Below are positions 12,244 through 33,201 of a stretch of DNA of 64,000 nt, in pieces; the stretch's first letter is position 1, and each line of letters opens with the position of its first letter. Made by a program: the position numbers and the translations under genes. Origin of the DNA: Gracilibacillus orientalis (GTDB lineage: Bacteria; Bacillota; Bacilli; Bacillales; Amphibacillaceae); NCBI RefSeq assembly GCF_900114645.1, contig NZ_FOTR01000002.1:186001-250000 (forward strand), in the 5' to 3' direction. The notes under the pieces are model-generated. The model did not search any database. It was not told where the DNA came from and saw only the letters and a program-made list of their open reading frames with translations.

Positions 12244-12395
12244 AAGTGAGACTATGATCAGTGAGGGTTTTGATCCCCACTGATCATTAGCGAAACTTAT
12301 CAGGGTGTTAGCGTCTGTTATCCCCCACTTAGCTTCCTTGTATTACTTGAAGCTTGAAGTGGGAGGCTTACAGACGATTAGCACCGTGATTAAGT
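12244..12395 (+). repeat. Two-hairpin repeat, full-length copy 1
   Basis: Begins AAGTGAGACTATGATCAGTG and ends ATTAGCACCGTGAT. It has a first hairpin (ATGATCAGTG.. with its complement) and a second long hairpin from TTATCAGGGTGTTAGCGTCT to its partner near 12367. It is about ten bases longer than the copies at 23502 because TTGAAGC is duplicated in the second loop. It lies upstream of zupT. Confidence 0.85.
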
Positions 12396-17591: not shown

Positions 17592-18229
17592 GTCCTCACC
17601 CCTTCATCATTATTACGTGAAAGACCCTCGAATGGTTTCACAAATTGTGTAAAATCTAATATTTTTTCACATAGATTCTCTAACAATGGATGATCATGAC
17701 TAATAATCAGTAATCCTATCTTATTTTTTTGGACATATTCCATTATCAGTTGCCATATTTCTGCTTGTGCAATTGGATCTAACATCGTTGTAATTTCGTC
17801 TGCAATGATATAGGAAGGATTTGTTAATAAACATCGTGCAATGCATATTCTTTGTAATTGGCCTCCTGAAAGCTGATGTGGATAACGCTGCAACCATTCA
17901 AAAGGTATATTCAATTGATTCAGCAAGTGTTTATTTATGTCTCCCGCTTCCTCTAATACTTTCTGTAAACGCCATTTAGGATTGACCGATTGTTCCGGGT
18001 GCTGCCAAATTAATTGAACAGGATGTGGTTTATTTTTTAATGATTTGCAATTGATTTCTCCTGATTGTGCAGGTAGATAACCTGTTATTACTTTGGCAAA
18101 TGTCGTCTTGCCCAACCCGCTTGCACCACTCAGTCCAATAATTTCTCCTTCATCAAGTGTCAAAGAAATATCATCGAAAAGGGTTGTTTGATTCGGTAAA
18201 GTATAAGATAAATTTGCTACCTCTAGCAT
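17588..18229 (-). CDS. Nickel/oligopeptide ABC importer ATPase (NikE/OppF-like)
   Basis: Cytoplasmic ATPase of an importer. Walker A GASGLGKTT, Q-loop VQLIWQHPEQS, signature LSGGQLQRICIARCL, Walker B YIIADEITTM and H-loop IISHDHP are all present. At 213 residues it is shorter than OppF and lacks its C-terminal extension, as NikE-type proteins do. The start is the ATG at 18229 after GAGGAG; an ATG at 18244 has no site. It follows the NikD-like gene after 166 bp, which holds no convincing gene. It overlaps ydbS by 4 bp. Confidence 0.88.
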   Translation of the reverse strand: MLEVANLSYTLPNQTTLFDDISLTLDEGEIIGLSGASGLGKTTFAKVITGYLPAQSGEINCKSLKNKPHPVQLIWQHPEQSVNPKWRLQKVLEEAGDINKHLLNQLNIPFEWLQRYPHQLSGGQLQRICIARCLLTNPSYIIADEITTMLDPIAQAEIWQLIMEYVQKNKIGLLIISHDHPLLENLCEKILDFTQFVKPFEGLSRNNDEGVRT

Positions 18230-18395
18230 TAACAAGCTCCTCATGAAAAAAAATAAAAAATCACTTTCTTCATAATAAATACAAACTGCGAACTAATGAA
18301 ATTTGCCTTGGTGCAGTTTCCTCCCAATCTGATTAATGATGAGTGCTTGGAAATGCTCCGGCAGAGAGCGATTCACAAAAGAATTATTTCGCAAT

Positions 18396-19157
18396 TTATG
18401 TTTTTTCTGCATATTTTATAAATAGATTTTGTGGTAGAGACTGCCATAATGCTTTCGTTAATGGATGTACTAATTTCTCGCCATCACCAGAAAAATGATG
18501 GACATCGGTTACTTCTATGATCTCCCCTTGATCTAAAACTGCTACCTGGTCTGCAAGCTGAAGTGCTACATCAAAATCATGGGTAATCAAGAGGATTGCT
18601 TTCCCTGCTTGTTGAACCTCTTTTAATAAAGCAATCATCTCATACTTAGCCTCTTCGTCAAGACCTGGAGTTGGTTCATCGGCAATCACCACATTAGCAG
18701 GACTCCCGAGCGCAATTGTTGCTAAAACTCTACGTGCTTGTCCCCCGGATAATTGAAAAGGATAGCGTGTTGCAATATCGGCATTCAAACCTAATTGCGC
18801 TAATAAGTCTAACATCACTTGATGAGGATTCTCTGCTTGAATCAGACCTTCTATCTGTTTACCAACTTTCATTAACGGATCCAAAGCTTCTACTGATTGT
18901 GGTATTAAAACGATATTTCTGCCACGATCATGCTCATTAACCTGTCGATCGCTATATAACACATCACCATTTTGACGAAGGTTATCAGGCAACAATTGCA
19001 ATATCGATTGTGCTAATAAACTTTTTCCTGAACCACTTGCACCAACAAGTGCTAAGACTTGTCCTCTATATAACGAAAAATGAATATCTTCTAAGAGATA
19101 ATGTTCTGCGTTCTGATGAAATACAGAAAGTTGGTTAACCGTTAAAATAGTGTCCAT
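18396..19157 (-). CDS. Nickel/oligopeptide ABC importer ATPase (NikD/OppD-like)
   Basis: Second ATPase of the importer, 253 residues. Walker A GASGSGKSLL, Q-loop VLIPQSVEALDP, signature LSGGQARRVLATIAL, Walker B VVIADEPTPGLD and H-loop LLITHDFDVALQ are visible. LLEDIHFSLYRGQVLALVG is the usual lead-in. Its start overlaps the permease gene upstream by 23 bp. Like NikD it lacks the long C-terminal OppD cluster-binding extension. The five genes from 22530 down to 17588 form one importer row. Confidence 0.88.
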   Translation of the reverse strand: MDTILTVNQLSVFHQNAEHYLLEDIHFSLYRGQVLALVGASGSGKSLLAQSILQLLPDNLRQNGDVLYSDRQVNEHDRGRNIVLIPQSVEALDPLMKVGKQIEGLIQAENPHQVMLDLLAQLGLNADIATRYPFQLSGGQARRVLATIALGSPANVVIADEPTPGLDEEAKYEMIALLKEVQQAGKAILLITHDFDVALQLADQVAVLDQGEIIEVTDVHHFSGDGEKLVHPLTKALWQSLPQNLFIKYAEKT

Positions 19158-19941
19158 AGGAACGATCCCTTTCTAAATAGTGTTTGAATGCTTTAGCAAA
19201 ACATTGAAATAGAATGATCATCATTAACAGTGTCAAACCTGGAAAGAAGGCTAGCCACCACATACCTGAAGATAAATATTGCATCGATTCTGATAAGATA
19301 ATACCAATAGCCGGTTGCTCTGCTGATAAACCGAATCCTAAGAAAGTAATCGATGCTTCATGTAAAATCGCATGCGGAAAGATTAAGGTAAAGCCTACCA
19401 TTAATTGCGGAAAAAGATGTGGAAGAAAATGATGTCTTGCTCGCCACCAGAATCCTTTTCCCAATTGTTTGGAAATTTGCACATATGGCATTGTCTGTAA
19501 TTGTAATAGCTCTGCTCTTAGTACCCTTGTTATTGCGGGCCAATGGGTCAACATTAAGCCAATAACTACACCTTTGAATCCACCACCTAAAACAAACGAA
19601 ATTAATATTAAGGTAACAAGATGTGGTAAACTCAAAAATAAATCGATCAGCCATGCTACCAATTTATCAAACAATGGATTGAACGTTGCCAAAAGACTCA
19701 GTAAAAGGCCTAAGCATGTCGAAAGCAGTGCGGTTACAATACCAAGGGTAATACTAAGTTGTATACCTTTTAACGTTCGTAGTAACATATCACGTCCCAA
19801 CCAGTCAGTTCCGAACAAATGAGATAAACTCGGTGCCTGATTTTTACCGATTAAATCAAGACGTATCGTATCATTTATCACGAATGATAGCAGATAGAAA
19901 ACAAGAAATAGGAAAAGTGGGATTAGCATGTTTTTCTTCAT
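19135..19941 (-). CDS. Nickel/oligopeptide ABC importer permease (NikC/OppC-like)
   Basis: Integral membrane permease with about six segments. HLFGTDWLGRDMLLRTLKGI is the typical OppC/NikC N-terminal block, and the EAA-type loop ILHEASITFLGFGLSAEQPA is the ATPase contact. The start is at 19941 after GGGGGAGCAGG, in an ATGA overlap with the previous permease; the open frame up to 20004 is ignored. 268 residues is in the family range. Residues do not tell the cargo apart. Confidence 0.9.
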   Translation of the reverse strand: MKKNMLIPLFLFLVFYLLSFVINDTIRLDLIGKNQAPSLSHLFGTDWLGRDMLLRTLKGIQLSITLGIVTALLSTCLGLLLSLLATFNPLFDKLVAWLIDLFLSLPHLVTLILISFVLGGGFKGVVIGLMLTHWPAITRVLRAELLQLQTMPYVQISKQLGKGFWWRARHHFLPHLFPQLMVGFTLIFPHAILHEASITFLGFGLSAEQPAIGIILSESMQYLSSGMWWLAFFPGLTLLMMIILFQCFAKAFKHYLERDRSYGHYFNG

Positions 19942-20918
19942 GACCTGCTCCCCCCTTTTCGTAAGCGCGGGTCTATCACGAGATATAAGATATCTGCTAA
20001 CCAATTACCAACGAAAACAAATAGTGCGCTAATCAATACAATTGCTAAAAACAGTGGCATATCACCTTGCAACCCTGCATCCACCACTGCTTGTCCTAAT
20101 CCAGGATAACTGAAAACTTGTTCTGCGATAATTGCACCACCAAACAACTCACCAAACGAGGCGAAATGCACCGAAATCGCAGGTAACAGCATATTTCGAA
20201 GACCATGTCTCATAAATAAACGGATACCTGCATAACCATTCGCTCTCGCCTGCAGGATATAAGGTGTTTGCAGCACATCTAACATTTTTTCTCTTGTATG
20301 TAAACAAACATTGGCAACACCGATAATACTAAGTGTTAAAGCAGGTAATATGGCATGATAGAGACGATCGCCAAAGGTTACTTCTGATGCAGTTATGCCT
20401 ATCGGTGCACTTAGGCCTGTCGGAAAGATACCCAGCCAGACCGAAAATACCATTAAAAGTAATAATCCTAACCAAAATCCTGGTGTAGAAAGTAATAGAT
20501 AGCAATATCCGTTAACAAATCGGTCAATCCATGTTCCTTTTTTCATAGCAGCAATAGACCCTAACACAACCCCTAAAGTTCCTGACATGAACCAAGCAAG
20601 AGCAATTAATAGAATGGAAGAGAAAAATCTATCAACTATCACCTCTATCACAGGCACTCGATGAATTAGCGATGTACCGAAATCACCTGACAGAATACTA
20701 GAAATCCATTGGAGATATTGTGTAATGAGAGGTTGATCCAAGCCCCAGTATGCTTCGATTAGCTCTCGTTGCTCTGGACTTACAAGTAGCATGTCTGCTC
20801 CAATATATGCTCGTACCGGGTCAACCGGAGACATGCTGACAAGTAAAAAAGTAAGGAGACTTACCGCAAACAGCAATAAAACAAGCCGTAATAATTTCTT
20901 TATGATTGCAACTGCCAT
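19938..20918 (-). CDS. Nickel/oligopeptide ABC importer permease (NikB/OppB-like)
   Basis: A 326-residue permease, first membrane partner of the importer. MAVAIIKKLLRLVLLLFAVS is the usual N-terminal segment, SPVDPVRAYIG and GLDQPLITQYLQWISSILSG are OppB/NikB blocks, and GGAIIAEQVFSYPGLGQAVV is the EAA loop. ATG follows GGAAAGGAGA. It is 22 bp after the substrate-binding gene and overlaps the next permease by 4 bp. Confidence 0.92.
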   Translation of the reverse strand: MAVAIIKKLLRLVLLLFAVSLLTFLLVSMSPVDPVRAYIGADMLLVSPEQRELIEAYWGLDQPLITQYLQWISSILSGDFGTSLIHRVPVIEVIVDRFFSSILLIALAWFMSGTLGVVLGSIAAMKKGTWIDRFVNGYCYLLLSTPGFWLGLLLLMVFSVWLGIFPTGLSAPIGITASEVTFGDRLYHAILPALTLSIIGVANVCLHTREKMLDVLQTPYILQARANGYAGIRLFMRHGLRNMLLPAISVHFASFGELFGGAIIAEQVFSYPGLGQAVVDAGLQGDMPLFLAIVLISALFVFVGNWLADILYLVIDPRLRKGGSRS

Positions 20919-20940
20919 TTACGTTCGTCTCCTTTCCTTT

Positions 20941-22530
20941 TTATTCTACTACTTGCCATTCTGTAATAAAATCAGTAATCGGCCACCCATGACCATGAGG
21001 TTGTACCTTTTGATCACCGATTTCAATAGTCTCATTAATATAGTAAATATGATTGAGGTTAACCAGCCATACCCAAGGTGCATCTCCTAACGTATTTATA
21101 CCTGTCTCACCATCCCATTGGGCCAGTTTCCAGTATTCATATGCCTCATCTTCTGTACGTGCATGAATCGCTTGATCTAAATAGTGATCCACTTGTTCAT
21201 TGTGATAATAATTAGCATTATAATAGTCGATTCCTTGCATGGAGGAATGATAAAGGGAATATATTTCAATTGGATCATGGCTCCCCCATCCCATCATAAC
21301 AGGATTAGCATGCATTTCTCGTTCCATTTCACTCCAGCTTACACCTTCTGTAGTGACTTCCATGCCAAATTGATTGATCATATCTGCAAACACTAGAGAT
21401 AAGGATTGTCTCATTTGGTCTCCTGATGGATAATACAACGTTATACTAGCCTTTTGTCCATCTTTCTCAAAGAAATCATCTTCTCCACGTTGCCAGCCTG
21501 CATCCGTTAAAATCTGTTCGGCACGCTCTTGATCAGCATCTTCAATCGTAGTGTCAGAGTTTCCCCATGGTAAACCGTCCGCACTGGAATAAGCAACTGT
21601 TCCTTCGCCATTTAGTACACCGTCTACGATTGCTTCGCGGTCCACTGCATAATTGAGCGCTTTTCGGATAGCAGGATCTGACGTTACGTCATTACCGACT
21701 TGCTCTCCCTCTTCGTTCGTAGTCGGTTCTGGGTACGGCAGCATTACCCCTCTGTTATCAACACTTTGTAAGGAGATCTGTTTCATCCCTTTAATTTCTT
21801 GATCGGCCATTGTGATCGGCACTGATAAAACATCCACTTGTCCCGCTTTTGCTGCCGCAATTGCCTGATCTTCTCCCGCAAATAAAAAGGTGAGCTGCTC
21901 AAATTCAAATTCATTACCATAGTAGTGAGGATTTTTTTCGACGATTAATTGCTCTCCCTTACGCCATTCCACTAATTGATAAGGACCGGAACCGACCGGA
22001 TTCTCTGCATAATTCTCATCATAAGCATGTTCTGGAACAATTCCTAATCTTTGCAACGTATAGACAAATGTCGACTGAGGCTGTGAAAGGTGAAAAGTCA
22101 CTTGATAGTCACCTTCTGTTTCGACTCTTTCCTGATTGGCTAAGTCGACAATCGATTGGGCTTGTTTTGCTTTTTCATATGTAAACTTAACATCAGTGGC
22201 TGTTAATGGTTCACCATCGGAAAATTGTACATCTTCCCGAAGTGTAAGAGTCCATGTTAAGCCATCTTCTGACACGTGATAATCGGTTGCCAGATCATAT
22301 GTCATTTCCATTTCACTATCTTGTGTTAATAATGTACTTTGAAAAAGTGGTGAGCCATATCTTCCCCAACCAGTTGTTGGATCAAAACCGTCATCTGGCT
22401 CTCCGCCGATTGCTAATGTTAATTGATCTTCATTTGATTCTGCATTAGTTTCGGGTGTTGGTTTATCACTGCAACTTGCCAGGATAACAATTAATATCAC
22501 TAGTAACATAAAACTGAATTTCTTCACCAT
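20941..22530 (-). CDS. Substrate-binding lipoprotein of the nickel/oligopeptide importer (NikA/CntA-like)
   Basis: SBP_bac_5 family lipoprotein, 529 residues. The signal ends in the lipobox ILASC (Cys 20). DGFDPTTGWGRYGSPLFQST and LTWTLTLREDVQFSDGEPLT are the conserved N-lobe blocks, and NPVGSGPYQLVEW the central one. The DP-TTGWG-YGSPLFQSTLL pattern is, from memory, the one usually named nickel-binding in Bacillaceae, but peptide or metallophore import is also possible. AAGGAGT precedes the ATG. The nearby larB and larE, which need nickel, support a metal role. This is inference, since no bound metal residue can be identified here. Confidence 0.85.
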   Translation of the reverse strand: MVKKFSFMLLVILIVILASCSDKPTPETNAESNEDQLTLAIGGEPDDGFDPTTGWGRYGSPLFQSTLLTQDSEMEMTYDLATDYHVSEDGLTWTLTLREDVQFSDGEPLTATDVKFTYEKAKQAQSIVDLANQERVETEGDYQVTFHLSQPQSTFVYTLQRLGIVPEHAYDENYAENPVGSGPYQLVEWRKGEQLIVEKNPHYYGNEFEFEQLTFLFAGEDQAIAAAKAGQVDVLSVPITMADQEIKGMKQISLQSVDNRGVMLPYPEPTTNEEGEQVGNDVTSDPAIRKALNYAVDREAIVDGVLNGEGTVAYSSADGLPWGNSDTTIEDADQERAEQILTDAGWQRGEDDFFEKDGQKASITLYYPSGDQMRQSLSLVFADMINQFGMEVTTEGVSWSEMEREMHANPVMMGWGSHDPIEIYSLYHSSMQGIDYYNANYYHNEQVDHYLDQAIHARTEDEAYEYWKLAQWDGETGINTLGDAPWVWLVNLNHIYYINETIEIGDQKVQPHGHGWPITDFITEWQVVE

Positions 22531-22638
22531 CGATTACTCCTTATCTGAATTAAAATACCGGTAATTATTATAACATGCATGGTATGAGAAGTCGTAAGAA
22601 ATTGAATAACCTACCTGTTCACTCATGTAATGAAAATA

Positions 22639-22676
22639 GTAAAACTCGTTCCATTTGTGATTGAAACGAGTTTTAC
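22639..22676 (-). terminator. Terminator after larB
   Basis: GTAAAACTCGTT and AACGAGTTTTAC form a perfect 12-bp stem with a 14-nt loop, then TATTTTC on the minus strand. It separates larB from the importer row. Confidence 0.75.
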
Positions 22677-22680
22677 CACA

Positions 22681-22734
22681 TAAAGTGAGACTATGATCAG
22701 TAGGGGGCTTACAGACGGTTAGCACCGTGATAAA
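22681..22734 (+). repeat. Two-hairpin repeat, short deletion form
   Basis: Starts TAAAGTGAGACTATGATCAG and jumps directly to AGGGGGCTTACAGACGGTTA, ending GCACCGTGATAA. Both ends are intact, but about 88 bp of the interior, including one arm of each hairpin, are missing. It lies between larB and its terminator. Confidence 0.8.
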
Positions 22735-22741
22735 TTATATT

Positions 22742-23488
22742 TTATGATGATTGATTCGCAATTCTGTGAATCATTACCGCATTATAAGCGCCACCAAATC
22801 CATTATCAATATTAACCACGCTGATTCCTGATGCACAAGAATTAAGCATCGTCAGCAAAGCAGATAGTCCTTGAAAATTAGCACCGTATCCAACACTTGT
22901 CGGCACTGCCATTATCGGATGAGAGACAAGCCCTCCGACGACACTCGGTAATGCTCCTTCCATCCCGGCTACAATAACAGATACTGTTGCTCCTCTTATT
23001 TCATCAATATGTGCCATTAGGCGATGAATTCCTGCTACACCTACATCATAAAATCGTCTGACTTCAACACCATAAGCTTCCGCTGTTTTGGCAGCTTCTT
23101 CTGCGACCGGCAAATCAGAAGTTCCTGCACATACCACGGCAATATAGCCTTTATAATGATTTTCTTCTGGACTGTTTTTCATAAAAAGTGTTCTGCTTGT
23201 ATGATCATATTGAAAATCAGATAATCGTTCGACAATCTCTTCTGCCTTAGATTGAGTAACTCTTGTTACTAATATGTTTTCCTTTTTTTCCATCATTGCC
23301 CGGGAAATATCGATAATTTGTGACGGATCTTTCCCTTCACCAAAAATAACTTCAGGAAAGCCTTGTCGTTTTTTTCGATGATGATCGACTTTTGCAAAAC
23401 CCAAATTTTCAAATGTAGCGAGCTTTTCTTTTGCCTCATCTGGTGATATTTCTCCACTGGCTACTCTTTTTAAAATATCTTCAAGCAT
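22742..23488 (-). CDS. larB: Nickel-pincer cofactor biosynthesis protein LarB
   Basis: Carboxylase/hydrolase that turns nicotinic acid adenine dinucleotide into the dicarboxylated mononucleotide, the first step of nickel-pincer cofactor synthesis. The C-terminal half has the PurE-like fold: VVCAGTSDLPVAEEA, VGVAGIHRL and VIVAGMEGALPSVVGGL are the LarB hallmarks. 248 residues matches the family. It stands 449 bp from the kinase gene, separated by a 142-bp tandem repeat and a 21-bp array that end 13 bp before its start. Ribosome site GGATGTGATG is weak. larE is two genes upstream on the same strand. Confidence 0.95.
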   Translation of the reverse strand: MLEDILKRVASGEISPDEAKEKLATFENLGFAKVDHHRKKRQGFPEVIFGEGKDPSQIIDISRAMMEKKENILVTRVTQSKAEEIVERLSDFQYDHTSRTLFMKNSPEENHYKGYIAVVCAGTSDLPVAEEAAKTAEAYGVEVRRFYDVGVAGIHRLMAHIDEIRGATVSVIVAGMEGALPSVVGGLVSHPIMAVPTSVGYGANFQGLSALLTMLNSCASGISVVNIDNGFGGAYNAVMIHRIANQSS

Positions 23489-23501
23489 TTCATCACATCC
23501 A

Positions 23502-23643
23502 TAAAGTGAGACTATGATCAGTGGGGGTTTTGACCCCCACTGATCATTAGCGAAACTTATCAGGGTGTTAGCGTCTGTTATCCCCCACTTTGCTTCCTTG
23601 TGTTACTTGAAGTGGGGGGGCTTACAGACGGTTAGCACCGTGA
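23502..23643 (+). repeat. Two-hairpin repeat, tandem unit A (142 bp)
   Basis: Hairpin I: ATGATCAGTGGGGGT with ACCCCCACTGATCAT, perfect 15-bp stem, TTTG-type loop. Hairpin II: TTATCAGGGTGTTAGCGTCT onward pairs with a segment ending GGTTAGCACCGTGATAA, about 34 bp with few mismatches. The unit begins TAAAGTGAGAC, which is also the junction to the next unit. Confidence 0.92.
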
Positions 23644-23784
23644 TAAAGTGAGACTATGATCAGTGGGGGTTTTGACCCCCACTGATCATTAGCGAAACTT
23701 ATCAGGGTGTTAGCGTCTGTTATCCCTCACTTTGCTTCCTTGTGTTACTTGAAGTGGGGGGCTTACAGACGGTTAACACCGTGA
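23644..23784 (+). repeat. Two-hairpin repeat, tandem unit B (141 bp)
   Basis: Almost identical to unit A; differences include one G fewer in the GGGGGG run, CCCTC for CCCCC and AACACC for AGCACC. It ends with GTGATAAAGTGAGAC, so a third unit was begun or lost. Confidence 0.92.
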
Positions 23785-23821
23785 TAAAGTGAGACACATA
23801 AACGTGCTGTTCACTAGTTTA

Positions 23822-23936
23822 TGGCCACTTTCACTGGTTTAATGGCCACTTTTTTTGATTTGATGGCCACTTCTTTCAACTTAGTGGCCACTTTTACGCA
23901 TTTGATGGCCACTTTTAAACCTTTTGTGGCCACTTT
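23822..23936. repeat. 21-bp-period array with TGGCCACTT core
   Basis: TGGCCACTT occurs at 23822, 23843, 23864, 23885, 23906 and 23927, exactly 21 bp apart. The remaining 12 bases of each unit vary but tend to end in TTTGA-like sequence. TGGCCA is a palindrome. Because 21 is a multiple of three, frames through it read as heptads (for example MATFTGL repeated), but no ribosome site exists. The array abuts the stop of the kinase gene and reaches into its last codons. Confidence 0.93.
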
Positions 23937-23937
23937 T

Positions 23938-25401
23938 TTAAAAATACTTTTCTATATCCTTAGCAATTTGCTGATATTTTGTAAACACTTCTTTATATTG
24001 TACATGATTGTCCATATTTGGTTCGACAATTTTATCAATCGGAATATTCTCTTTAATCTTTTCGAATGATTCTACTTTGCCAGTAGCTACGAGTGCTGTC
24101 CAACTTGCTCCCCAAGCTGCACCATGGTGTGTGTCGGCTAGTTGTATTTCCTTACCAAACACATCTGCTAAAATCTGAACCCATAAAGGGGATTTTGACA
24201 ATCCTCCATTTACCGAAATACTAGTTGGTTCTCCAGCAATTTCTTCGAGTGATTGTCCAATTTGATACAAATTAAACACAATTCCTTCCAAAACAGCACG
24301 GACTAGATGTGGACGTCGATGGGTTACGTTTAAACCGTAAAAATTACCACGTGCTTGTTGATTCCAAACTGGTGCACGTTCACCATTGACATATGGTATA
24401 AACAATAATCCGTCAGCACCTATCTCCAAGTCTTCTGCTCCTGCTAAAAATTGTTCGTGACTGCCTTCAAATTCCATCATATCCTTCAGCCATTGTAAAG
24501 CAATACCGCCATTGTTAGTCGGACCGCCAATGATTGAGGTATCTGAAGTAAAGGCATAACTGAAAGTTTCGCCGTTATCATTAACATGCTGACCGGATAT
24601 CAATTGTCGGATTGCGCCACTAGTGCCGACAGTAACCGCTACTTCTCCTGGCTTTATCGCACCATTTCCAAGATTGGCTAATTGCCCATCTGCAGCACCT
24701 ATTACTAACGGAGTACCATCTGGCCAACTTATTTCCTCAGCAATTTCCACTTTTAGGCCTTCCACTATTTCCGTTGGTCCGACAATCTTTGATAATTGCG
24801 AACGTTCAACGCCAGCAAGCCCTAGTGCTTCCTCTTCCCAATCCAGTGATTTTACATTCATTAAACCGGTAGCAGATGCCATCGAATAATCAATGACTCG
24901 CTTATCAAACCATTTAAACAACAGATATTCCTTAAGCGACATAAAATATGCTGCTTGTTGATACGGTTGATAGTTATTTTCTCTCATCCACATAAGCTTT
25001 ACTAATGGTGACATCGGATGAATCGGTGTACCTGTTTTACTGTAGACACTCTTCTTAACAGTTGGGTCTAAATCAGTGACTAATTCACTGCTTCTTCCAT
25101 CAGACCAAATCGACATATCTGACAGTGGGCTTCCATCTTGATCGACACAGATCAACGAGTGCATCGCACATGAAATACCGACCGTTAATACATGTTGTTG
25201 TTTTGTTGCAGCAAAAACATCGGCAAGCACCTTTCTAGCACTTGCTTCGATTTCATCAGGTTTCTGTTCAACAAATGATGGTTTGGGATAATAGGTTTCA
25301 ATCAATTGTTCTGCTTCTGTTTTTACGTTTCCTTTTAAATCAAATGCTACTGCTTTCACACTTGTAGTCCCAAAATCGAGACCAATCACTACTTCCTCCA
25401 T
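23938..25401 (-). CDS. FGGY-family sugar/sugar-acid kinase (gluconokinase-like)
   Basis: ATP-dependent carbohydrate kinase, 487 residues. GLDFGTTSVKAVAFD is the phosphate-1 loop. ISCAMHSLICVD and DMSIWSDGRS resemble gluconokinases more than xylulokinases. TVGTSGAIRQL and NGGLSKSPLWVQILADVFG are the ATP-site blocks. The start is the ATG at 25401 after GAAGGAGG. It lies downstream of larE with a hairpin in the 66-bp gap, and upstream of a repeat-filled spacer before larB. With a LarA-type epimerase and an SDR alongside, an aldonate such as gluconate or a C2-epimer is the likely substrate; the exact sugar is inference. Confidence 0.9.
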   Translation of the reverse strand: MEEVVIGLDFGTTSVKAVAFDLKGNVKTEAEQLIETYYPKPSFVEQKPDEIEASARKVLADVFAATKQQHVLTVGISCAMHSLICVDQDGSPLSDMSIWSDGRSSELVTDLDPTVKKSVYSKTGTPIHPMSPLVKLMWMRENNYQPYQQAAYFMSLKEYLLFKWFDKRVIDYSMASATGLMNVKSLDWEEEALGLAGVERSQLSKIVGPTEIVEGLKVEIAEEISWPDGTPLVIGAADGQLANLGNGAIKPGEVAVTVGTSGAIRQLISGQHVNDNGETFSYAFTSDTSIIGGPTNNGGIALQWLKDMMEFEGSHEQFLAGAEDLEIGADGLLFIPYVNGERAPVWNQQARGNFYGLNVTHRRPHLVRAVLEGIVFNLYQIGQSLEEIAGEPTSISVNGGLSKSPLWVQILADVFGKEIQLADTHHGAAWGASWTALVATGKVESFEKIKENIPIDKIVEPNMDNHVQYKEVFTKYQQIAKDIEKYF

Positions 25402-25426
25402 AATGTCCTCCTTCACCCAGAAGAGG

Positions 25427-25460
25427 AAAAGCTTTGGACAAGAAAGATCCAAAGCTTTTT
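25427..25460 (-). terminator. Hairpin between larE and the kinase (attenuator or terminator)
   Basis: AAAAGCTTTGGA and TCCAAAGCTTTTT pair perfectly over 12 bp with a 9-nt loop; TTTTCCTCTTC follows on the minus strand. It would lower or stop read-through from larA-SDR-larE into the kinase. Confidence 0.75.
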
Positions 25461-25467
25461 CTCCATG

Positions 25468-26268
25468 TTATGATAGAGCTCGGTTCATACTACCGCTTTT
25501 ATATCCTACCAAGTCCATTGTAACAAATTTATAGCCATAGCTCTGCAGTTTTTCAGTTACTCGTTGATGATTCGCTAATAATGTCTGCATGTCTTGCGGT
25601 TCTACTTCAATTCTTGCAATGTCTTCATGCGTACGCACTCTCACTTGACGAAGACCAATAGTTTTCAAAAAAGCTTCTGACTTATCTACTTTAGTGAGCT
25701 TTGCCTTCGTTATTGTTTCACCATAGGCAATCCTTGACGATAAACATGCAAATGATGGTTTATCCCATGTTGGCAAGTCCAGCTGCTTCGACAATTCACG
25801 AATTTCTTCTTTAAATAAATCAGCTTCTTGTAGAGGACCGCGTACCCCCTGCTCTTTCGCCGCTCTCATGCCAGGACGAAACTCGCTCATATCATCGGCA
25901 ATCACACCATATACAATGTTCTGGAATCCTTTTTCCTGCATAATCGGAACAAGATGATCAAACAAGCTGTTTTTACAAAAATAGCAACGGTTTTTATCGT
26001 TCTCTGTATAACCGGGAATCGCTAATTCACTCGTTTCGATCACTTGATGTCTGGCACCGATATGCTCGGCTAACCGTTTGGCTTCTTCCAGCTCACTTGT
26101 TGGATAAGTTTCCGAGTCCGCTGTTACTGCCAGTACGTCATCAACACCTAATGTATCCACTGCTACTTTTAATAAATAGGTACTGTCTACACCACCCGAA
26201 AAAGCCACGACTACTTTCTTCATTTCCTGGAGAATAGAAACTAACTGTTGATGTTTTTGTTCGACCAT
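25468..26268 (-). CDS. larE: ATP-dependent sacrificial sulfur transferase LarE
   Basis: Adds sulfur to the pyridinium dicarboxylate mononucleotide in nickel-pincer cofactor synthesis. The PP-loop SGGVDSTYLL is at residue 24. FACLSSRIAYGE holds the Cys that in classical LarE gives up its own sulfur. NRCYFCKNSLF adds a C-x2-C pair, giving three candidate cysteines as reported for Fe-S-dependent LarE proteins; which class this is cannot be decided from sequence. 266 residues is normal. The gene lies 38 bp after the SDR and on the same strand as larA. Confidence 0.95.
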   Translation of the reverse strand: MVEQKHQQLVSILQEMKKVVVAFSGGVDSTYLLKVAVDTLGVDDVLAVTADSETYPTSELEEAKRLAEHIGARHQVIETSELAIPGYTENDKNRCYFCKNSLFDHLVPIMQEKGFQNIVYGVIADDMSEFRPGMRAAKEQGVRGPLQEADLFKEEIRELSKQLDLPTWDKPSFACLSSRIAYGETITKAKLTKVDKSEAFLKTIGLRQVRVRTHEDIARIEVEPQDMQTLLANHQRVTEKLQSYGYKFVTMDLVGYKSGSMNRALS

Positions 26269-26306
26269 GTTCTATCTCCCTCCCTTTGTGGTTTTTGTTG
26301 TCTTTA

Positions 26307-27077
26307 TTATATCGTCATACTTCCAAAACCACCATCAACTCGCAATAATTCCCCTGTAACATATCCGCTTGCTTTATCTGATGCAAGATAAACCGTCGCA
26401 CCTTGTAATTCTTCTGGCTCACCAAAACGGTTCATTGGTGTATGATTCATAATCGAATTAACACGGTCTTCACTTAGAATTTTACGGTTTTGTTCTGCTG
26501 GAAAGAATCCTGGAATGATTGCATTCACACGTATATTGTGTGGTGCAAATTCACGTGCTAAATATTGCGTTACACTGTTGATTGCTGCTTTTGAAGCGGA
26601 ATAAGTGAACACTTTAGATAGTGGATTGGTAGATGAAACAGACGAAATGTTAATAATGCTACCGCCACGTTGCTGCTCTACCATTTTCTTCGCAAAAATT
26701 TGCGTGGCGAACACAATCCCTTTTAAGTTAACATCCATGATTTTATCCCATTCTTCTGTAGAAAGCTCTAAGTATGGAGTGGTACTATTCATTCCCGGTG
26801 CGTTTACGAGAATATCCCATCCTCCTGCCCATTCTTCAATTTCTTCTGCTACTTTTTCTACTGTTGGAAGATTACTCACATCTGCCTGAAAAGCTTTTGC
26901 TTCGCCACCATCGTTTTGAATTTCTTTGACAACTTCCTCAGCGGTATCCAGATTACGCCCAACAATGGCAACTTTCGCTCCATGTTCTGCCAAGCCTTTC
27001 GACATTGAACCACCTAATGTACTATTTCCCCCAAGTGCTACTGCTACTTTTCCTGTTAAATCAAATAGTTTACTCAT
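26307..27077 (-). CDS. SDR oxidoreductase of the sugar-acid (mannonate/gluconate dehydrogenase-like) type
   Basis: NAD(P)-dependent oxidoreductase, 256 residues. VALGGNSTLGGSMSK is a variant cofactor loop, ILVNAPGMNS replaces the usual NNAG, IINISSVSS has the Ser and TYSASK the Tyr/Lys. PGFFPAEQNRKIL is close to the block seen in the SDR-type fructuronate/mannonate oxidoreductases (UxuB) and gluconate 5-dehydrogenases. It sits 22 bp after larA and 38 bp before larE, so it is in the same operon. It would oxidise or reduce the sugar acid handled by the LarA homologue; direction and substrate are inference. Confidence 0.88.
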   Translation of the reverse strand: MSKLFDLTGKVAVALGGNSTLGGSMSKGLAEHGAKVAIVGRNLDTAEEVVKEIQNDGGEAKAFQADVSNLPTVEKVAEEIEEWAGGWDILVNAPGMNSTTPYLELSTEEWDKIMDVNLKGIVFATQIFAKKMVEQQRGGSIINISSVSSTNPLSKVFTYSASKAAINSVTQYLAREFAPHNIRVNAIIPGFFPAEQNRKILSEDRVNSIMNHTPMNRFGEPEELQGATVYLASDKASGYVTGELLRVDGGFGSMTI

Positions 27078-27099
27078 TAATATGTTTCCCCTCTCTGTT

Positions 27100-28368
27100 T
27101 TATTTTAGATTTCCTTCATGATCAAATTCAAAATCATATAAGTCTGACAATTTCTCAAGACTTTCATGTTTTTCTACATCTTCAAGCATATTTTCCGAAA
27201 CTTCGATCTCACCAATTTCCAATGTATTTTTAATTCGAACCACTCTAGCTTTGGTAAAGTCCAAAATATTACATGTTTTGATTGCAGCTTGAATGGCTGT
27301 TTTTTCGTTAGGCATTGCTGTTGATATATGTGTTGGACCCACAACTGTAGAAGTTAAACCATTAGCATAGGTTGCTTCACGATTCATTTTGTCTACCAGT
27401 TTTTGTGTAGTGAAATCTGCTGTACCGACACCATTGGCATTGCCTTCTGTTTCCTCCGTTAGATCTAATACCACCATTTTAGATACATTCGGTCCACCAT
27501 AGGCATATGGTGTTGGATAGCGTCCAGTGATATTCGGATCCATTCCATCTCCACTGATGTTTTTACCAATTTCATCGATTACCAACACGTCGATCTGTTC
27601 AAAGAATAGCTTCGGTAACGATTTCTTGGAAAGTTTTTGCAGCTCTGGTTCACGTTCTTCAATTTCTTCCGGTAATAATACTTCTAATGTTGCGACTTTA
27701 TCAAACGCATTTTCTACCGTTGCTACCGTAAAAAGAATGGGCATTTTATCAATGATAATTTTTCCCATTGCTGGTACGTGCTCTGCCATATGTTTAAAAC
27801 CTAATTGATGACAAGCTTCTGCACCTTTTTGCTTCCCTAAACCAATACTAATCATTTTCATAATGCCACTTTCGACAGGACCACGAAATGCAGTATGTGG
27901 CTTCACACGATTAAGGACAACGATTCCATCTGCTTCTGAAGCAAGCTTATCAATATAGATCGGTAATCCATTTTCTAACTCATCAATTTTAATTACTTCC
28001 ATTGATGAACGTATTTCTGCTCCAACTACATCTTCTTTAACACCAAGATGCTCAAGTACTGCTTTTTGTCCTGGACCTGTTGCACCGCCATGACTGCCCA
28101 TACAAGGAACGATAAATGGCTTAGCACCATGCTCTTTAAGGAAATCTATCGTTACTTTCGTTGTTTCAACAAGACGGTCAAGCCCACGACTACCAACTGC
28201 AACAGCCACTTCCATTCCTGGTTTGATCTGATTCTCTATTCCTTTTTGATTTAATTGCTGATTCAACACTGAGCCTAAATCAGCAATTTGTTGATCATCG
28301 AAATATTGTTTCGCTTTCATCATTTTAGGAATCGGAATATCTTGCACTAATTCATGTAAAATCCCCAT
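27100..28368 (-). CDS. larA: LarA-family nickel-dependent 2-hydroxyacid racemase/epimerase
   Basis: Homologue of lactate racemase, 422 residues. Residues expected to serve the nickel-pincer cofactor are present: SHGGATG (catalytic His), KPHTAFRG (second His), SGIMKMISIGLGK (Lys that binds the cofactor), EACHQLGF (Ni-ligand His). Known LarA homologues act on lactate, malate, phenyllactate, 2-hydroxyglutarate and gluconate (C2 epimerase). The kinase and SDR here favour a sugar acid over lactate. The ATG at 28368 follows AAAGGAG; the GTG at 28377 is inside the ribosome site. It is the first gene of the row, behind an operator-promoter at 28431. Confidence 0.9.
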   Translation of the reverse strand: MGILHELVQDIPIPKMMKAKQYFDDQQIADLGSVLNQQLNQKGIENQIKPGMEVAVAVGSRGLDRLVETTKVTIDFLKEHGAKPFIVPCMGSHGGATGPGQKAVLEHLGVKEDVVGAEIRSSMEVIKIDELENGLPIYIDKLASEADGIVVLNRVKPHTAFRGPVESGIMKMISIGLGKQKGAEACHQLGFKHMAEHVPAMGKIIIDKMPILFTVATVENAFDKVATLEVLLPEEIEEREPELQKLSKKSLPKLFFEQIDVLVIDEIGKNISGDGMDPNITGRYPTPYAYGGPNVSKMVVLDLTEETEGNANGVGTADFTTQKLVDKMNREATYANGLTSTVVGPTHISTAMPNEKTAIQAAIKTCNILDFTKARVVRIKNTLEIGEIEVSENMLEDVEKHESLEKLSDLYDFEFDHEGNLK

Positions 28369-28423
28369 TGAATTCACTCCTTTAAAATTAGTAATGATAC
28401 CGCTTAACTAATTTATTGCGTAT

Positions 28424-28459
28424 AGTATATCATTAATTTGTTTAGTGGACAAATTAATG
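28424..28459 (-). promoter_or_regulatory. larA promoter with ROK operator
   Basis: CATTAATTTGT (28431-28441) and ACAAATTAATG (28449-28459) are perfect 11-bp inverted repeats with a 7-nt spacer. On the minus strand TTGTCC and TATACT, 17 bp apart, fit sigma-A -35 and -10 boxes, and the operator covers the -35 and the spacer. CATTARTTTGTTT is shared with the ROK gene promoter at 34159, which suggests repression by that protein. Confidence 0.75.
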
Positions 28460-28500: not shown

Positions 28501-29424
28501 CTAAAATAATAGTTGAGCAATGTAGACGGTTCCTGTCACCGTAAGCATACTCGCTATAGTTGAAAATAATACTGTTTGTGCTGCTAAATCTGGATGACTT
28601 TTGTATTCTTCTGCAATGACAGCACTATTAACGGAAGTAGGCATCGCTGAAGCAATCAATAATGCTTGCGCCATGGTACCGTCCAGTTGAAAAAGACTAA
28701 TAATAATAAATGCTACAATCGGCCCGCCAATTAGACGTAAGGTAATACTAGCATAAACTGTATATAACCCTCTTTTGAATTTCATTCGAGCGACCTGTGC
28801 ACCTAAAGTAATCAACGCAAACGCTATCATTGCATCAGCTATGTAATTAGCTGATACCCAAATTGGTTCAGGAATTGAAATATTCCATGCATTTAACAAG
28901 ATACCTGAAAGCATGGCATATAATACCGGCATTTTAAAATAACCTAAAGCTGCCTTCCACTTTCCATCTTTAGCTGCCCTCAGAGAAAAAATGCCATAAG
29001 AAAAAAGAAAAATGTTTTGTAAGGTTAATACAATAACTTGAATGGACATAGCATACGGATCACCGCGAAACACTAAATCATTTACCGGTACACCGTAATT
29101 GCCTGAATTAAAAAACATCACACTGTTGGCAAATGTCGTCTTCTTTCCACCTTTAATTCCCATTATCTTGGAAGTAATTATCGCTGCTAAATAGAGCAAA
29201 AAAACCAGTAAAAGAAAAAATCCTAGCACATGTGCGAATAGCTGTAGACTAAAAGTTGATTCATACAATCTTACAAAAATAAAACCTGGAACGACAAAAT
29301 AAATATTTAATTTGGCTAATGTCGCTATATCCAATGTAAACTTAAGATGTAAACAAAACCCAATCGCTAATAAAATAAAAATAGGGAGAATTACATCTTT
29401 AAAGATGACGAGAAACTCTGTCAA
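28501..29424 (-). CDS. AEC-family (auxin efflux carrier/MalP-like) permease
   Basis: Integral membrane transporter with about ten segments in 307 residues. FNSGNYGVPVND is the conserved AEC block in the first half, and the second half has SAMPTSVNSAVIAEEY, the counterpart. Relatives move malate and other organic acids. The TTG at 29424 has AAGGGGAG before it, so LTEFLVIF is the start rather than the TTG at 29445. It lies between larA and the oxidoreductases on the same strand and could import the acid processed here. Its 5' untranslated part is a short repeat copy (29439-29492) preceded by a perfect 16-bp palindrome. Confidence 0.85.
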   Translation of the reverse strand: MTEFLVIFKDVILPIFILLAIGFCLHLKFTLDIATLAKLNIYFVVPGFIFVRLYESTFSLQLFAHVLGFFLLLVFLLYLAAIITSKIMGIKGGKKTTFANSVMFFNSGNYGVPVNDLVFRGDPYAMSIQVIVLTLQNIFLFSYGIFSLRAAKDGKWKAALGYFKMPVLYAMLSGILLNAWNISIPEPIWVSANYIADAMIAFALITLGAQVARMKFKRGLYTVYASITLRLIGGPIVAFIIISLFQLDGTMAQALLIASAMPTSVNSAVIAEEYKSHPDLAAQTVLFSTIASMLTVTGTVYIAQLLF

Positions 29425-29438
29425 ATGCTCACTCCCCT

Positions 29439-29492
29439 TTATCAAGGTGCTAATTGTCCGTAAAACCTACACTGGTGGAAGTTTTACTTTAT
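29439..29492 (-). repeat. Two-hairpin repeat, short form in the leader of the AEC gene
   Basis: Read on the minus strand it begins ATAAAGTAAAACTTCCACCA and ends GACAATTAGCACCTTGATAA, matching the ends of the family (AAAGTGAGAC, GGTTAGCACCGTGATAA). It directly precedes the ribosome site of the permease gene. Confidence 0.7.
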
Positions 29493-29749: not shown

Positions 29750-30826
29750 TCACTTGGTAACGTCTATCGCTTTTTCCTGGGCTTTCAAGCATAGTTCGGC
29801 AGCTTTAAATGCGTGTTTTTGTGTCATCGCATGCTCGGTACGATGGATACAATCTTTAATCAGTTCGCCAAAGAACGGGAAGCCTACTTTGCCATTCAAG
29901 TCATAATGTTTTTCCCCTTCTTGATTGACAAGATAAAGCTGATTGCCACCTTTATCTGTTGCTAAATCAACATATTTCCGGATCTCTATTGTTCCTTCCG
30001 TTCCAACAATAAACATCCTTCCATCTCCCCATGTACTTAAACCGTCTGGTGTAAACCAATCGACACGAAAAAATTGAGTTGCACCATTATCTCCTCGTAA
30101 TGTCGCATCCCCATAATCATCCAGTTCAGGATGGTCTGGGTTATCATAATTTCCAATTTTACTGTGCATTACTTCTGCATCTTCACATCCAGCATAAAAT
30201 AAAAATTGCTCGATTTGATGACTGCCAATATCACACAATATCCCGCCATATTTTTCTTTTTCAAAAAACCAATCTGGTCGACTTGGTGCATTCAGGCGAT
30301 GTGGGCCAAATCCTGTTACTTGAATAACTCTGCCTATTGCACCTTGTTCAATTAATTGACCCGCAAAAACTGCACTTTCCACGTGTAGGCGTTCACTGAA
30401 ATAAACCATATATTTCTGCCCTGTTTCTTCTACTACCTTTTTCGTTTCTTTTAATTGTTCGGGTGTTGTGAATGGTGTTTTGTCTGTGAAATAATCTTTC
30501 CCTGCTCTCATGACTCGATTCCCTAAAGCACTTCTTTCCGATGGGATCGCCGCTGCTGCTACAAGCTTCACTTCCTGATCGCCTAACACTTGTTCTAAAG
30601 ACTCTGCCTGTTTAGCCTGCGGAAATTTTTTTAGAAAGTTGTCCACCTTTTTTTGATCCGGATCATAGACCCACTTTAAAGTAGCACCTGCTTCTAGCAA
30701 TCCATTACATTGACCAAAGATATGTCCATGGTCTAACCCTGCAGCCGCAAAGACAAATTCCCCTTCTTTGACAACAGGATTCGGTTTACCCTCTGGTGCG
30801 TAATTCATACCATCTGCTTTACTCAT
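29750..30826 (-). CDS. Gfo/Idh/MocA oxidoreductase with variant active-site lysine motif
   Basis: NAD(P)-dependent sugar oxidoreductase family, 358 residues. The N-terminal fold is less regular than in its neighbours (FVFAAAGLDHGHIFGQCNGL). The usual EKP is replaced by DKTPFTTPEQ, keeping the Lys. GGILCDIGSHQIEQFLFYAG is the conserved C-terminal block with the catalytic His. AGGAGTG precedes the ATG. It is 160 bp from the other two family members and has its own terminator, so it may be transcribed separately. The substrate is unknown; the cluster context suggests a sugar or inositol-like compound. Confidence 0.88.
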   Translation of the reverse strand: MSKADGMNYAPEGKPNPVVKEGEFVFAAAGLDHGHIFGQCNGLLEAGATLKWVYDPDQKKVDNFLKKFPQAKQAESLEQVLGDQEVKLVAAAAIPSERSALGNRVMRAGKDYFTDKTPFTTPEQLKETKKVVEETGQKYMVYFSERLHVESAVFAGQLIEQGAIGRVIQVTGFGPHRLNAPSRPDWFFEKEKYGGILCDIGSHQIEQFLFYAGCEDAEVMHSKIGNYDNPDHPELDDYGDATLRGDNGATQFFRVDWFTPDGLSTWGDGRMFIVGTEGTIEIRKYVDLATDKGGNQLYLVNQEGEKHYDLNGKVGFPFFGELIKDCIHRTEHAMTQKHAFKAAELCLKAQEKAIDVTK

Positions 30827-30986
30827 CTTCTAACACTCCTTACATCTAATAATCTATTAACCATTGTAAGTGTTTTCAATTGATTTTCCTATTAAAACCA
30901 ATTAGAAAAACCTGTTTTTTTAATCTAAATAGGAACAGATCCGTATGTAACCTCCTATTCTAGTCATTTAACTTTCTTCTATATTA

Positions 30987-32006
30987 TTACCTTTGATCAT
31001 GATACAGCTTCATTTTCATCGTTTGTTTTGCATCTGATGATTCACGTATTAGATGAATCATTTCCATCGAAACTTGCGCATCTTTAGCATGAATATACTC
31101 ATTACCATCCCGTTTCACTTCCTGATAAAATTGATCAATTAATTTCGCATGACTGGCCCCATAATAAAACTTCGAACCTGGTAACTTCTGGTCTTCTATC
31201 AGTTTCACTTTCTTTCCAGTTTCATTAGCAATCGTTAATATACTGTCTTTTATCGTTAATTTTGCTGTTTCTAACATAACCTGAAATTCAACAGAAGAGT
31301 TCTGTGCATTGGAAATAGTAGCAAAGAAGAGACCTGTTGCCCCATTTTGATATTTAATATGAGCGGTTGCCGTATCCTCGACATCATAGCCGTAATCTAG
31401 TAAACGATCGACAGAACCACGAATACTATAAATTTCGCCTCCAAACCATTGCAAAAAATCTAATGTATGGATTGATTGATTAATCATGACACCACCACCG
31501 GCTGTTTCCATCGAACCACGCCATGGCTTCGCATCGTAATACGATTTAGGACGATGCCATGTGACAATTCCTTTCACCCCTTTTACTTCTCCATAGTTAC
31601 CTTTGGAAATTATGGATGCTAATTCTTCAACTGTTTCATTCAGCCGGTTTTGCAGACTGACACAAATTTTCACTTCAGGGTGTTGTTCTTCCAGCTCAAC
31701 AATGGCGTGGCTATCTGTTAAATCATGTGCAAGTGGTTTCTCTAACATAACATGGACGCCGTTTTCCACTGCTGCTTTTGTTGCTGGATAATGTAAATAA
31801 TGCGGTAAGCAGATATGAACGCAGTCAAGAACCACTTCATCTAACATCACTTGATAATCCTTGTAAAACGGCACTTCTTTAAAACTACTTTGCAGTGATG
31901 TGTCGATATCACAAACTGCTACTAATTCAGCATGTGAATTTTCATTAATCGCAGCTTTATGAATCTTTGAAATATCACCAAGTCCTATTATACCAACACG
32001 TAGCAC
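30987..32006 (-). CDS. Gfo/Idh/MocA oxidoreductase
   Basis: A 339-residue enzyme. LRVGIIGLGDISKIHKAAI is the nucleotide-binding start, VHVMLEKPLAHD has the EKP, and GGGVMINQSIHTLDFLQWFG holds the conserved His. The start is GTG at 32006 after GGGGGC. It lies 34 bp after the next family member at 32041, so the two are co-transcribed. Three paralogues together resemble gene sets for oxidising and re-reducing a sugar (oxidation, a middle step, reduction), but no middle enzyme of such a route is present here. Confidence 0.9.
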   Translation of the reverse strand: MLRVGIIGLGDISKIHKAAINENSHAELVAVCDIDTSLQSSFKEVPFYKDYQVMLDEVVLDCVHICLPHYLHYPATKAAVENGVHVMLEKPLAHDLTDSHAIVELEEQHPEVKICVSLQNRLNETVEELASIISKGNYGEVKGVKGIVTWHRPKSYYDAKPWRGSMETAGGGVMINQSIHTLDFLQWFGGEIYSIRGSVDRLLDYGYDVEDTATAHIKYQNGATGLFFATISNAQNSSVEFQVMLETAKLTIKDSILTIANETGKKVKLIEDQKLPGSKFYYGASHAKLIDQFYQEVKRDGNEYIHAKDAQVSMEMIHLIRESSDAKQTMKMKLYHDQR

Positions 32007-32040
32007 AATAACGCCCCCTTTTCATTAAGAAGAAAATTAG

Positions 32041-33201
32041 TTATGTTTGAATGTTTTGTCTGATTTCTTGTTCTCTTCGTTTGTTCAATTCTTCTACATA
32101 CAGATTTTCATCAATTGGCAGGGATATTTCTTTATTTAACCAACTTGATAAGTGCATAGCGTTTGCCAGTTCCACACCATTAATCCCATCACTGCCTGAT
32201 GCAATCAATGGTGTACCGTCTAAAATATTGGCAGCAAAGTTTTCTAATACTGCTCGGTGCTGCCCACCCCAAACACTATCAAACTCTAAAACTTCTTCTT
32301 GATAGATGGCTCCAGATCCTTCACCCTTTAATAATTTTGATACTTCTTGCATCGACATCGTGTCGCTCATTTCTTTTTCTGGTTTATTTAAGCGTTTAAT
32401 CGTTACTTTTTTACTGTCATCGACAACAATTTTCCCTTTGTCACCGTAAATTTCCAAACGGTCAGTTCCCAATACATCATGGGTACAGGTAATGAATACC
32501 CCTGTTGCGCCATTACCATAATCCAATATCGTTGTTACATCATCTTCTACGGGGATATTTCGCTGATAGCCGTATTGTGCTTTCGTGTAGACTTTTTTCG
32601 GCATGCCGCAGATCCATTGCAGTAAATCAATCTGGTGTGGTGCCTGGTTTACTAACACACCGCCACCTTCCCCATCCCAAGTCGCTCTCCAGGAACCTGC
32701 ATCATAATAACCTTGGGGGCGCCACCAGGACGTAATAATCCAGTTTGTTCTTCTAATATTACCAATTTCTTGATGATCAATGATTTCTTTTACTTTTTGA
32801 TAAAGTAGATTGGTACGCTGATTAAACATAATTGCATAGGTTAGATCAGGTTTGTTGTTGGCGAATTCATTGATCTCCTTTACTTGTTTGGTATACACAC
32901 CTGCAGGTTTTTCAAGTAAAGCATGAACATCGCGATCAAGTGCTTCGATCCCCATTTCCGGATGTAAGTAGTGCGGTACACATGTTACAATCGCATCAAC
33001 GTCTCCACTTGCTAACATGTCAATATAATCTTGATAAAAAGGTACATCAGGGAATTCTTGGTCTGCCCATTTTTTCTTTTCGGGATCGATATCACATATT
33101 GCTCCGATCTCTATATTGCTTATACGACCTTCTTTGATCATATTTCCGTAAGCCCCACCTTGCTGACCTAAACCAATAATCCCTAGCCTCACTTTTGCCA
33201 T
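32041..33201 (-). CDS. Gfo/Idh/MocA oxidoreductase
   Basis: A 386-residue enzyme. VRLGIIGLGQQGGAYGN opens the Rossmann fold, HALLEKPAGVY carries the EKP, and GGGVLVNQAPHQIDLLQWIC the conserved His. The C-terminal part is longer than in its neighbour. AAGGAGTGATG precedes the ATG. It is the first gene of a two-gene row with 30987 and faces the ROK gene across a 1-kb spacer full of repeats. No operator of the larA/ROK type is seen in front of it. Confidence 0.92.
   Translation of the reverse strand: MAKVRLGIIGLGQQGGAYGNMIKEGRISNIEIGAICDIDPEKKKWADQEFPDVPFYQDYIDMLASGDVDAIVTCVPHYLHPEMGIEALDRDVHALLEKPAGVYTKQVKEINEFANNKPDLTYAIMFNQRTNLLYQKVKEIIDHQEIGNIRRTNWIITSWWRPQGYYDAGSWRATWDGEGGGVLVNQAPHQIDLLQWICGMPKKVYTKAQYGYQRNIPVEDDVTTILDYGNGATGVFITCTHDVLGTDRLEIYGDKGKIVVDDSKKVTIKRLNKPEKEMSDTMSMQEVSKLLKGEGSGAIYQEEVLEFDSVWGGQHRAVLENFAANILDGTPLIASGSDGINGVELANAMHLSSWLNKEISLPIDENLYVEELNKRREQEIRQNIQT

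Follow-up and report, generated by a model that had tools for sequence, protein, structure and literature searches.

A group 22 nickel-pincer LarA homologue in Gracilibacillus orientalis and its predicted place in a hexuronate pathway

Which acid does a LarA homologue act on when its gene lies among genes of sugar-acid metabolism? The question is raised by a minus-strand gene cluster in a 64,000-nucleotide stretch of the Gracilibacillus orientalis genome (hereafter the window; part of contig 6 of a 4.6 Mb genome in 29 contigs), where the gene for an AEC-family (auxin efflux carrier) transporter is followed by larA (27100–28377), a gene for a short-chain dehydrogenase/reductase (SDR; 26307–27077), larE (25468–26268), an FGGY kinase gene (23938–25452) and larB (22742–23488). 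The five genes from larA to larB are intact minus-strand open reading frames, which bears out the gene set and placement given in a preliminary description of the locus. The sequence directly shows which genes are present, the families of their proteins, the residues of the active site and how the cluster co-occurs with uxaC, gnd and uxaE. From these, we consider it probable that it provides the lower steps of a hexuronate pathway in which mannonate dehydratase is bypassed, with a group 22 LarA converting mannonate to gluconate.

In the proposed route, UxaC would isomerize D-glucuronate to D-fructuronate and D-galacturonate to D-tagaturonate, UxaE would convert D-tagaturonate to D-fructuronate, and the operon SDR would reduce D-fructuronate to D-mannonate. 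LarA, carrying the nickel-pincer nucleotide (NPN) made by LarB, LarE and LarC, would then invert C2 of D-mannonate to yield D-gluconate, via proton-coupled hydride transfer between H93 and H158. Phosphorylation of D-gluconate by the FGGY kinase would give 6-phosphogluconate, and its decarboxylation by Gnd would give ribulose 5-phosphate, which enters the pentose phosphate pathway. Plant-derived uronic acids are the most likely starting material. What we infer here is which substrate each enzyme uses, in which direction the pathway runs and what is transported. The preliminary description had envisaged C2 epimerization followed by oxidation or phosphorylation; a sugar-acid route that pairs such an epimerase of the LarA family with a gluconokinase-like kinase is supported, while the SDR most likely acts before LarA and not after it. 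What had been suggested as a possible full catabolic route would here be the lower half of one: the uronate route also needs uxaC, uxaE, gnd and larC, and three of these (uxaC, uxaE and larC) are found on a different contig.

The LarA homologue is assigned to NPN isomerase group 22 by a score of 542 bits against NCBIfam model NF052515 (curated cut-off 400), and also matches PF09861 (34 bits, cut-off 23). The malate racemase model, the only other NPN model listed, gave 24 bits against a cut-off of 500; the protein thus falls in an NCBIfam group of its own rather than under the malate racemase model. Grouping with lactate or malate racemases was a result that the preliminary description had named as telling against its reading. 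It is the single LarA match in the whole genome, with its closest species-labelled matches in Gracilibacillus suaedae and G. lacisalsi (92%). Among 398 sampled genomes of the class, 56 score above the group 22 cut-off. A FastTree phylogeny of 86 group 22 proteins (109 rows before duplicate removal, with pieces shorter than 381 residues left out) groups the SDR-linked proteins with three unlabelled ones in a 60-member clade (support 99; hereafter clade A), and recovers a second clade of 18 without the SDR (support 100). L013, one of those three, does carry the SDR. No group 22 member with a known function, and no description of this operon, was found in the open-licence PubMed Central literature; Table 1 of PMC7583248 contains no group 22 enzyme, and PMC11770544 numbers the LarA groups differently, so that its figure may place group 22 under another number.

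Five residues (R61, H93, H158, K171 and H187; positions counted from the ATG) show no variation across 47 LarA homologues, nor across 59 clade A sequences (a column count that left out L191), 18 sister-clade sequences and 8 outlying ones. By order and spacing, H93 and H158 would correspond to the catalytic histidines, K171 to the NPN lysine, H187 to the nickel histidine and R61 to the phosphate arginine; the His/Lys/His set pointed out in the preliminary description is therefore present. The ribose-binding aspartate expected three residues before the phosphate arginine is not found in this LarA, where the position is V58. Mapped by spacing, the loop that follows H158 reads T159-A160, as it does in 58 of the 59 clade A sequences. 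These equivalences rest on order and spacing because a profile search against solved structures returned only chance matches (best E 0.014, to repeat proteins) and thus no residue alignment to L. plantarum LarA; a sequence search against solved structures gave no match. At the level of structure, an AlphaFold model derived from the 47 homologues (mean pLDDT 91.6) was compared with the PDB using Foldseek, and all 18 matches with E ≤ 0.001 were LarA-family proteins (12–16% identity; top match 9q3j), which gives the protein a LarA fold.

The SDR and the kinase are the two enzymes expected to flank the epimerization step. The best model for the SDR, a predicted D-fructuronate reductase, is D-mannonate oxidoreductase NF006132 (276 bits, cut-off 281), followed by gluconate 5-dehydrogenase (231.5 bits, cut-off 279). 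Six other LarA-linked SDRs straddle the NF006132 cut-off, two passing it (282 and 291 bits) and four falling below (247–270 bits). In a small tree the SDR is sister to the UxuA-linked UxuB SDRs, and by this placement it is a UxuB relative. Its closest solved chain is 1vl8, labelled gluconate 5-dehydrogenase, which we take to be T. maritima TM0441 from the Thermotoga GntE-route locus. The kinase, a predicted gluconokinase or possibly a mannonate kinase, is best described by the gluconokinase model TIGR01314 (455 bits, cut-off 648.55), and its closest solved chain is the gluconate kinase 3gbt (304 bits, compared with 173 for the next). The earlier labels of a gluconokinase-like kinase and a mannonate/gluconate-type SDR thus agree with the best models, both at scores below the cut-offs. 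The two cofactor genes, like larA, have family assignments well beyond chance: LarE, the sulfur transferase of NPN synthesis, scores 371 bits against TIGR00268 (cut-off 150) and carries three cysteines (C95, C98 and C175), and LarB, the carboxylase of NPN synthesis, scores 313 bits against NF033503 (cut-off 175).

The uronate assignment draws on the company that the genes keep. In 57 related loci, where neighbours were counted by protein clustering so that the numbers are lower bounds, we found larA in at least 53, the SDR in 52, the FGGY kinase in 45, larE and larB in 32 each, larC1 in 15, larC2 in 14, uxaC and gnd in 14 each, and uxaE in 8; one or more of uxaC, gnd and uxaE occurred in 24 of the 57. 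The larA–SDR gap is at most 66 bp in 49 of the 51 loci with both genes called, the window included (in L155 and L013 the SDR was masked by a longer overlapping frame during gene calling and was located by tblastn). The gene directly before larA is uxaC in 7 of 54 loci and the AEC transporter in 17, the latter mostly in Gracilibacillus and including the window. The most complete arrangement is seen in locus L157 (from G078), which brings together gnd, a ROK gene on the opposite strand, uxaC, larA, SDR, larE, kinase, larB, larC1 and larC2. Locus L153 (from G029) has the order uxaC-gnd-ROK-mgsA-AraC-gfo3-gfo2-iolE-gfo1-larA-SDR-kinase, with ROK again on the other strand.

Whole genomes were then compared for co-occurrence, using a sample of 101 related genomes and scoring a protein as present above its model cut-off. 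Group 22 LarA was present in 29, UxaC in 43, UxuA in 42 and UxaE in 21. Clade A accounts for 25 of the 29 (21 as tree rows, three identical to a row, and a fragment in G003 assigned by 85% identity). UxaC occurs in 24 of these 25 genomes, the sole exception being 73% complete, compared with 19 of the 76 others (Fisher 1.5e-10), and in none of the four genomes with only a divergent group 22 LarA. Outside the genus, UxaC is present in 8 of 8 clade A genomes (p = 5e-5 against the same 19 of 76), in all of which uxaC lies on the larA contig at a distance of at most 20 kb. UxaE shows a similar pattern, occurring in 19 of 25 clade A genomes and 2 of 76 others. Among UxaC-positive genomes outside the genus, group 22 LarA was found in 5 of 6 without UxuA versus 3 of 21 with UxuA (p = 0.004). 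Retained in these counts are G003 (73% complete), G008 (83%) and G001, in which uxaC, uxaE and uxuA are fragmented and contain stops; UxuA matches below the cut-off in G008 and G039, and a UxaC match in G079, were scored as absent. An FGGY gluconokinase above the TIGR01314 cut-off is present in three clade A genomes (G005, G015 and G045) and absent from the other 22, that of G. orientalis included, which speaks for the operon kinase in the role of gluconokinase, small non-FGGY gluconokinases having been outside the search.

The five genomes with a group 22 LarA and no UxuA (G029, G039, G044, G045 and G078, each 99% complete) bear on the question of a bypass. Altronate dehydratase was not found in four of them. 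The UxuA-linked SDR-type UxuB reaches 436–441 bits in G000, G048 and G055; no SDR in the five genomes attains this range, and the best is the operon SDR itself (262–287 bits), mannitol-dehydrogenase-type UxuB/UxaB not being part of the search. G029 lacks UxuA, altronate dehydratase and 2-keto-3-deoxy-6-phosphogluconate (KDPG) aldolase and, within the searches made, its uronate isomerase therefore has no visible exit through 2-keto-3-deoxygluconate. This pattern suggests that some Bacillaceae-like genomes use an enzyme with a nickel cofactor in place of mannonate dehydratase.

The situation in G. orientalis itself is different. Contig C13 of its genome carries uxaC (C13:33486), uxaE (C13:35428), larC2 (C13:41457–41873) and larC1 (C13:62749–63507), along with a gene resembling polygalacturonases (300 bits against a cut-off of 600) and genes for KduI and KduD above their cut-offs, so that larB, larE, larC1 and larC2 are all present in the genome and larC is absent only from the cluster. 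UxuA (530 bits, above cut-off) and UxuB are found together on contig C6. With both routes present, mannonate would have two exits, with the LarA branch running in parallel to that through UxuA. That group 22 LarA replaces UxuA in this genus was accordingly rejected, UxuA passing its cut-off in all genomes but G008 (83% complete). As for LarC, the protein of L. plantarum is made through a frameshift. The two genes here are separate and 21 kb apart, and LarC presumably works as two polypeptides and not as a frameshift fusion; larA lies between larC1 and larC2 in 8 of the 13 loci with both (L045, L052, L054, L055, L060, L065, L068 and L077; gaps 4.6–11.8 kb).

Several observations weigh against a mannonate-to-gluconate bypass. 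LarA lies outside the gluconate-epimerase groups 19 and 20, and the E-V loop residues after the second catalytic histidine reported for GntEs (PMC11770544) are replaced by T-A, as mapped by spacing only. The SDR lies at or below its curated cut-off, and the kinase well below that for gluconokinases. Within the genus, only 4 of 17 genomes have uxaC close to larA (≤24 kb), and uxuA is above cut-off in 16 of the 17, G. orientalis counted among them. Outside it, the presence of UxuA is not itself linked to group 22 LarA (3 of 8 versus 23 of 76, p = 0.7). Moreover, G098 has UxaC with neither UxuA nor group 22 LarA, and does have altronate dehydratase; G026 and G053 have UxaE without group 22 LarA. 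Among the five genomes lacking UxuA, G078 possesses altronate dehydratase, and KDPG aldolase is missing only in G029 and present in the other four. Finally, the relatives share ancestry, and the counts are therefore not independent.

The order of epimerization and phosphorylation determines whether LarA would act on free or on 6-phosphorylated mannonate. If phosphorylation came first, the FGGY enzyme would be a mannonate kinase and LarA a 6-phosphomannonate 2-epimerase producing 6-phosphogluconate, an order shown in extracts of Lactobacillus suebicus, neither step having an assigned gene there (PMC6978723). The distant position of the operon kinase within the gluconokinase family would fit this scheme, as would the lack in LarA of the E-V loop described for GntEs that act on free gluconate (PMC11770544). 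However, the LarA enzymes whose measured activity is described in the works cited here act on unphosphorylated acids (PMC7583248, PMC11770544), and the Thermotoga GntE acts on free mannonate (PMC7583248). Since these enzymes use free acids, we favour epimerization before phosphorylation and consider the reverse order unlikely. Were it true, LarA would be the first nickel-pincer enzyme on a phosphorylated sugar acid, the FGGY enzyme would be a dedicated mannonate kinase, and the cluster would supply genes for an activity so far seen only in extracts of L. suebicus.

Two other assignments would remove mannonate from the scheme. Both the second-best model of the SDR and the label of its closest solved chain point to a gluconate 5-dehydrogenase, from which a ketogluconate or idonate route could be drawn, with LarA epimerizing another hexonate such as idonate or gulonate. 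The mannonate oxidoreductase model nevertheless leads by 39–65 bits in each of the seven LarA-linked SDRs scanned, the SDR stands beside UxuB in the small tree, and the neighbours include uxaC and uxaE, so we give this route very little weight. Alternatively, LarA could act on a 2-hydroxy acid unrelated to uronates, its neighbourhood reflecting chance or lifestyle association. Group 22 is indeed not a single-substrate group, given the TRAP, MR_MLE and IlvD/EDD neighbours of its other clades, and yet the LarAs linked to the SDR group in a single supported clade, and the eight clade A genomes outside the genus have uxaC no more than 20 kb from larA; we regard an unrelated acid as quite improbable. 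We thus return to mannonate-to-gluconate epimerization as the probable function for clade A. A single substrate for all of group 22 was rejected on the neighbours of the clade without SDR: L162 and several of L164–L191 (with ten neighbour proteins annotated across the class-level loci) place group 22 LarAs beside TRAP transporters, MR_MLE (enolase superfamily) proteins and IlvD/EDD dehydratases. Seven positions, including N270/D, K297/R and T350/M, distinguish the two clades, which suggests related sugar-acid epimerases of different specificity.

The remaining features of the locus concern its expression and its supply. The larA frame opens with GTG at 28377 and the kinase frame with TTG at 25452, the ATG codons at 28368 and 25401 being the likelier starts. 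Intergenic distances are short from larA to SDR (22 bp), SDR to larE (38 bp) and larE to the kinase ATG (66 bp), followed by 449 bp of repeat-containing DNA between the kinase and larB. This minus-strand spacer (23500–23937) comprises a 21-nt tandem unit (core TGGCCACTT; 23801–23942) directly 3′ of the kinase stop, and two tandem copies of a dispersed element of ~140 bp (23500–23790), which has further matches in the window at 22703–22730 and 12362–12389 and 57 full or partial matches across the genome. A terminator-like hairpin 3′ of larB on the minus strand (22636–22679; 18 pairs, 5 of them G-C) possibly ends the transcription unit; the consensus scan that detected it found 13 such sites compared with 10.9 expected in shuffles. 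The AEC transporter (28501–29445, minus strand; Pfam Mem_trans, 90 bits), encoded 123 bp upstream of larA, is a candidate sugar-acid carrier. A five-gene Opp/Nik-type ABC importer on the minus strand (17588–22530; substrate-binding protein, two permeases and two ATPases) matches nickel-transporter models, all below their cut-offs, and may supply nickel for the NPN cofactor; its substrate-binding protein gene recurs in 8 of 14 Gracilibacillus loci. On the other side of the cluster, three Gfo/Idh/MocA dehydrogenase genes (29750–33201) recur together with the lar operon in 17 loci, the window included. Often found with them are genes for an IolE-like TIM barrel, in 16 loci, and for an AraC regulator, in 12. 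This set resembles, we assume, those for oxidative (3-keto) cleavage of glycosides, and perhaps feeds uronates from glycosides. A methylglyoxal synthase gene lies near the operon in 11 loci (L047, L051, L053–L055, L057, L062–L064, L068 and L077), and in 7 loci it directly precedes larA.

The assignment provides a testable function for a clade of a widespread LarA group. The route would yield ribulose 5-phosphate from uronates in place of pyruvate, and a uronate route of this kind has been termed redox-neutral and of interest for the fermentation of pectin waste (PMC6978723). Compared with lactate and malate racemases (5huq, 2yjg and 7s91), the group 22 LarA shares the fold and the order of catalytic residues, and differs in its uronate context and in having only 12–14% identity in structural alignments. 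Carbohydrate-gene linkage is common to group 22 and the single-histidine LarA subfamily (9q3j and 9q3k; PMC12611868); that subfamily is described as being without the second histidine, whereas group 22 keeps H158, by spacing. The L. suebicus pathway (PMC6978723) likewise runs from a uronate isomerase branch to 6-phosphogluconate and bypasses mannonate dehydratase; phosphorylation precedes epimerization there, while genomic context is compatible with either order here. The closest parallel is the Thermotoga maritima route of UxaC/UxaE, fructuronate reductase, GntE, GntK and Gnd, proposed by Rodionova et al. in 2012 with epimerization of free mannonate (PMC6978723), and for which GntE (group 20, LarAH20) has been assayed (PMC7583248). 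The two share the logic of an NPN enzyme that would convert mannonate to gluconate ahead of 6-phosphogluconate. The suggestion in the preliminary description that the route might be undescribed therefore does not hold for its outline, and stands for the role of a group 22 LarA, for which we found no description. As far as found, the novelty lies in the enzyme group and in the compact operons: LarA here belongs to group 22 and not 20, its loop signature is T-A and not E-V, and some of the Bacillota operons add larE, larB and larC to the catabolic genes.

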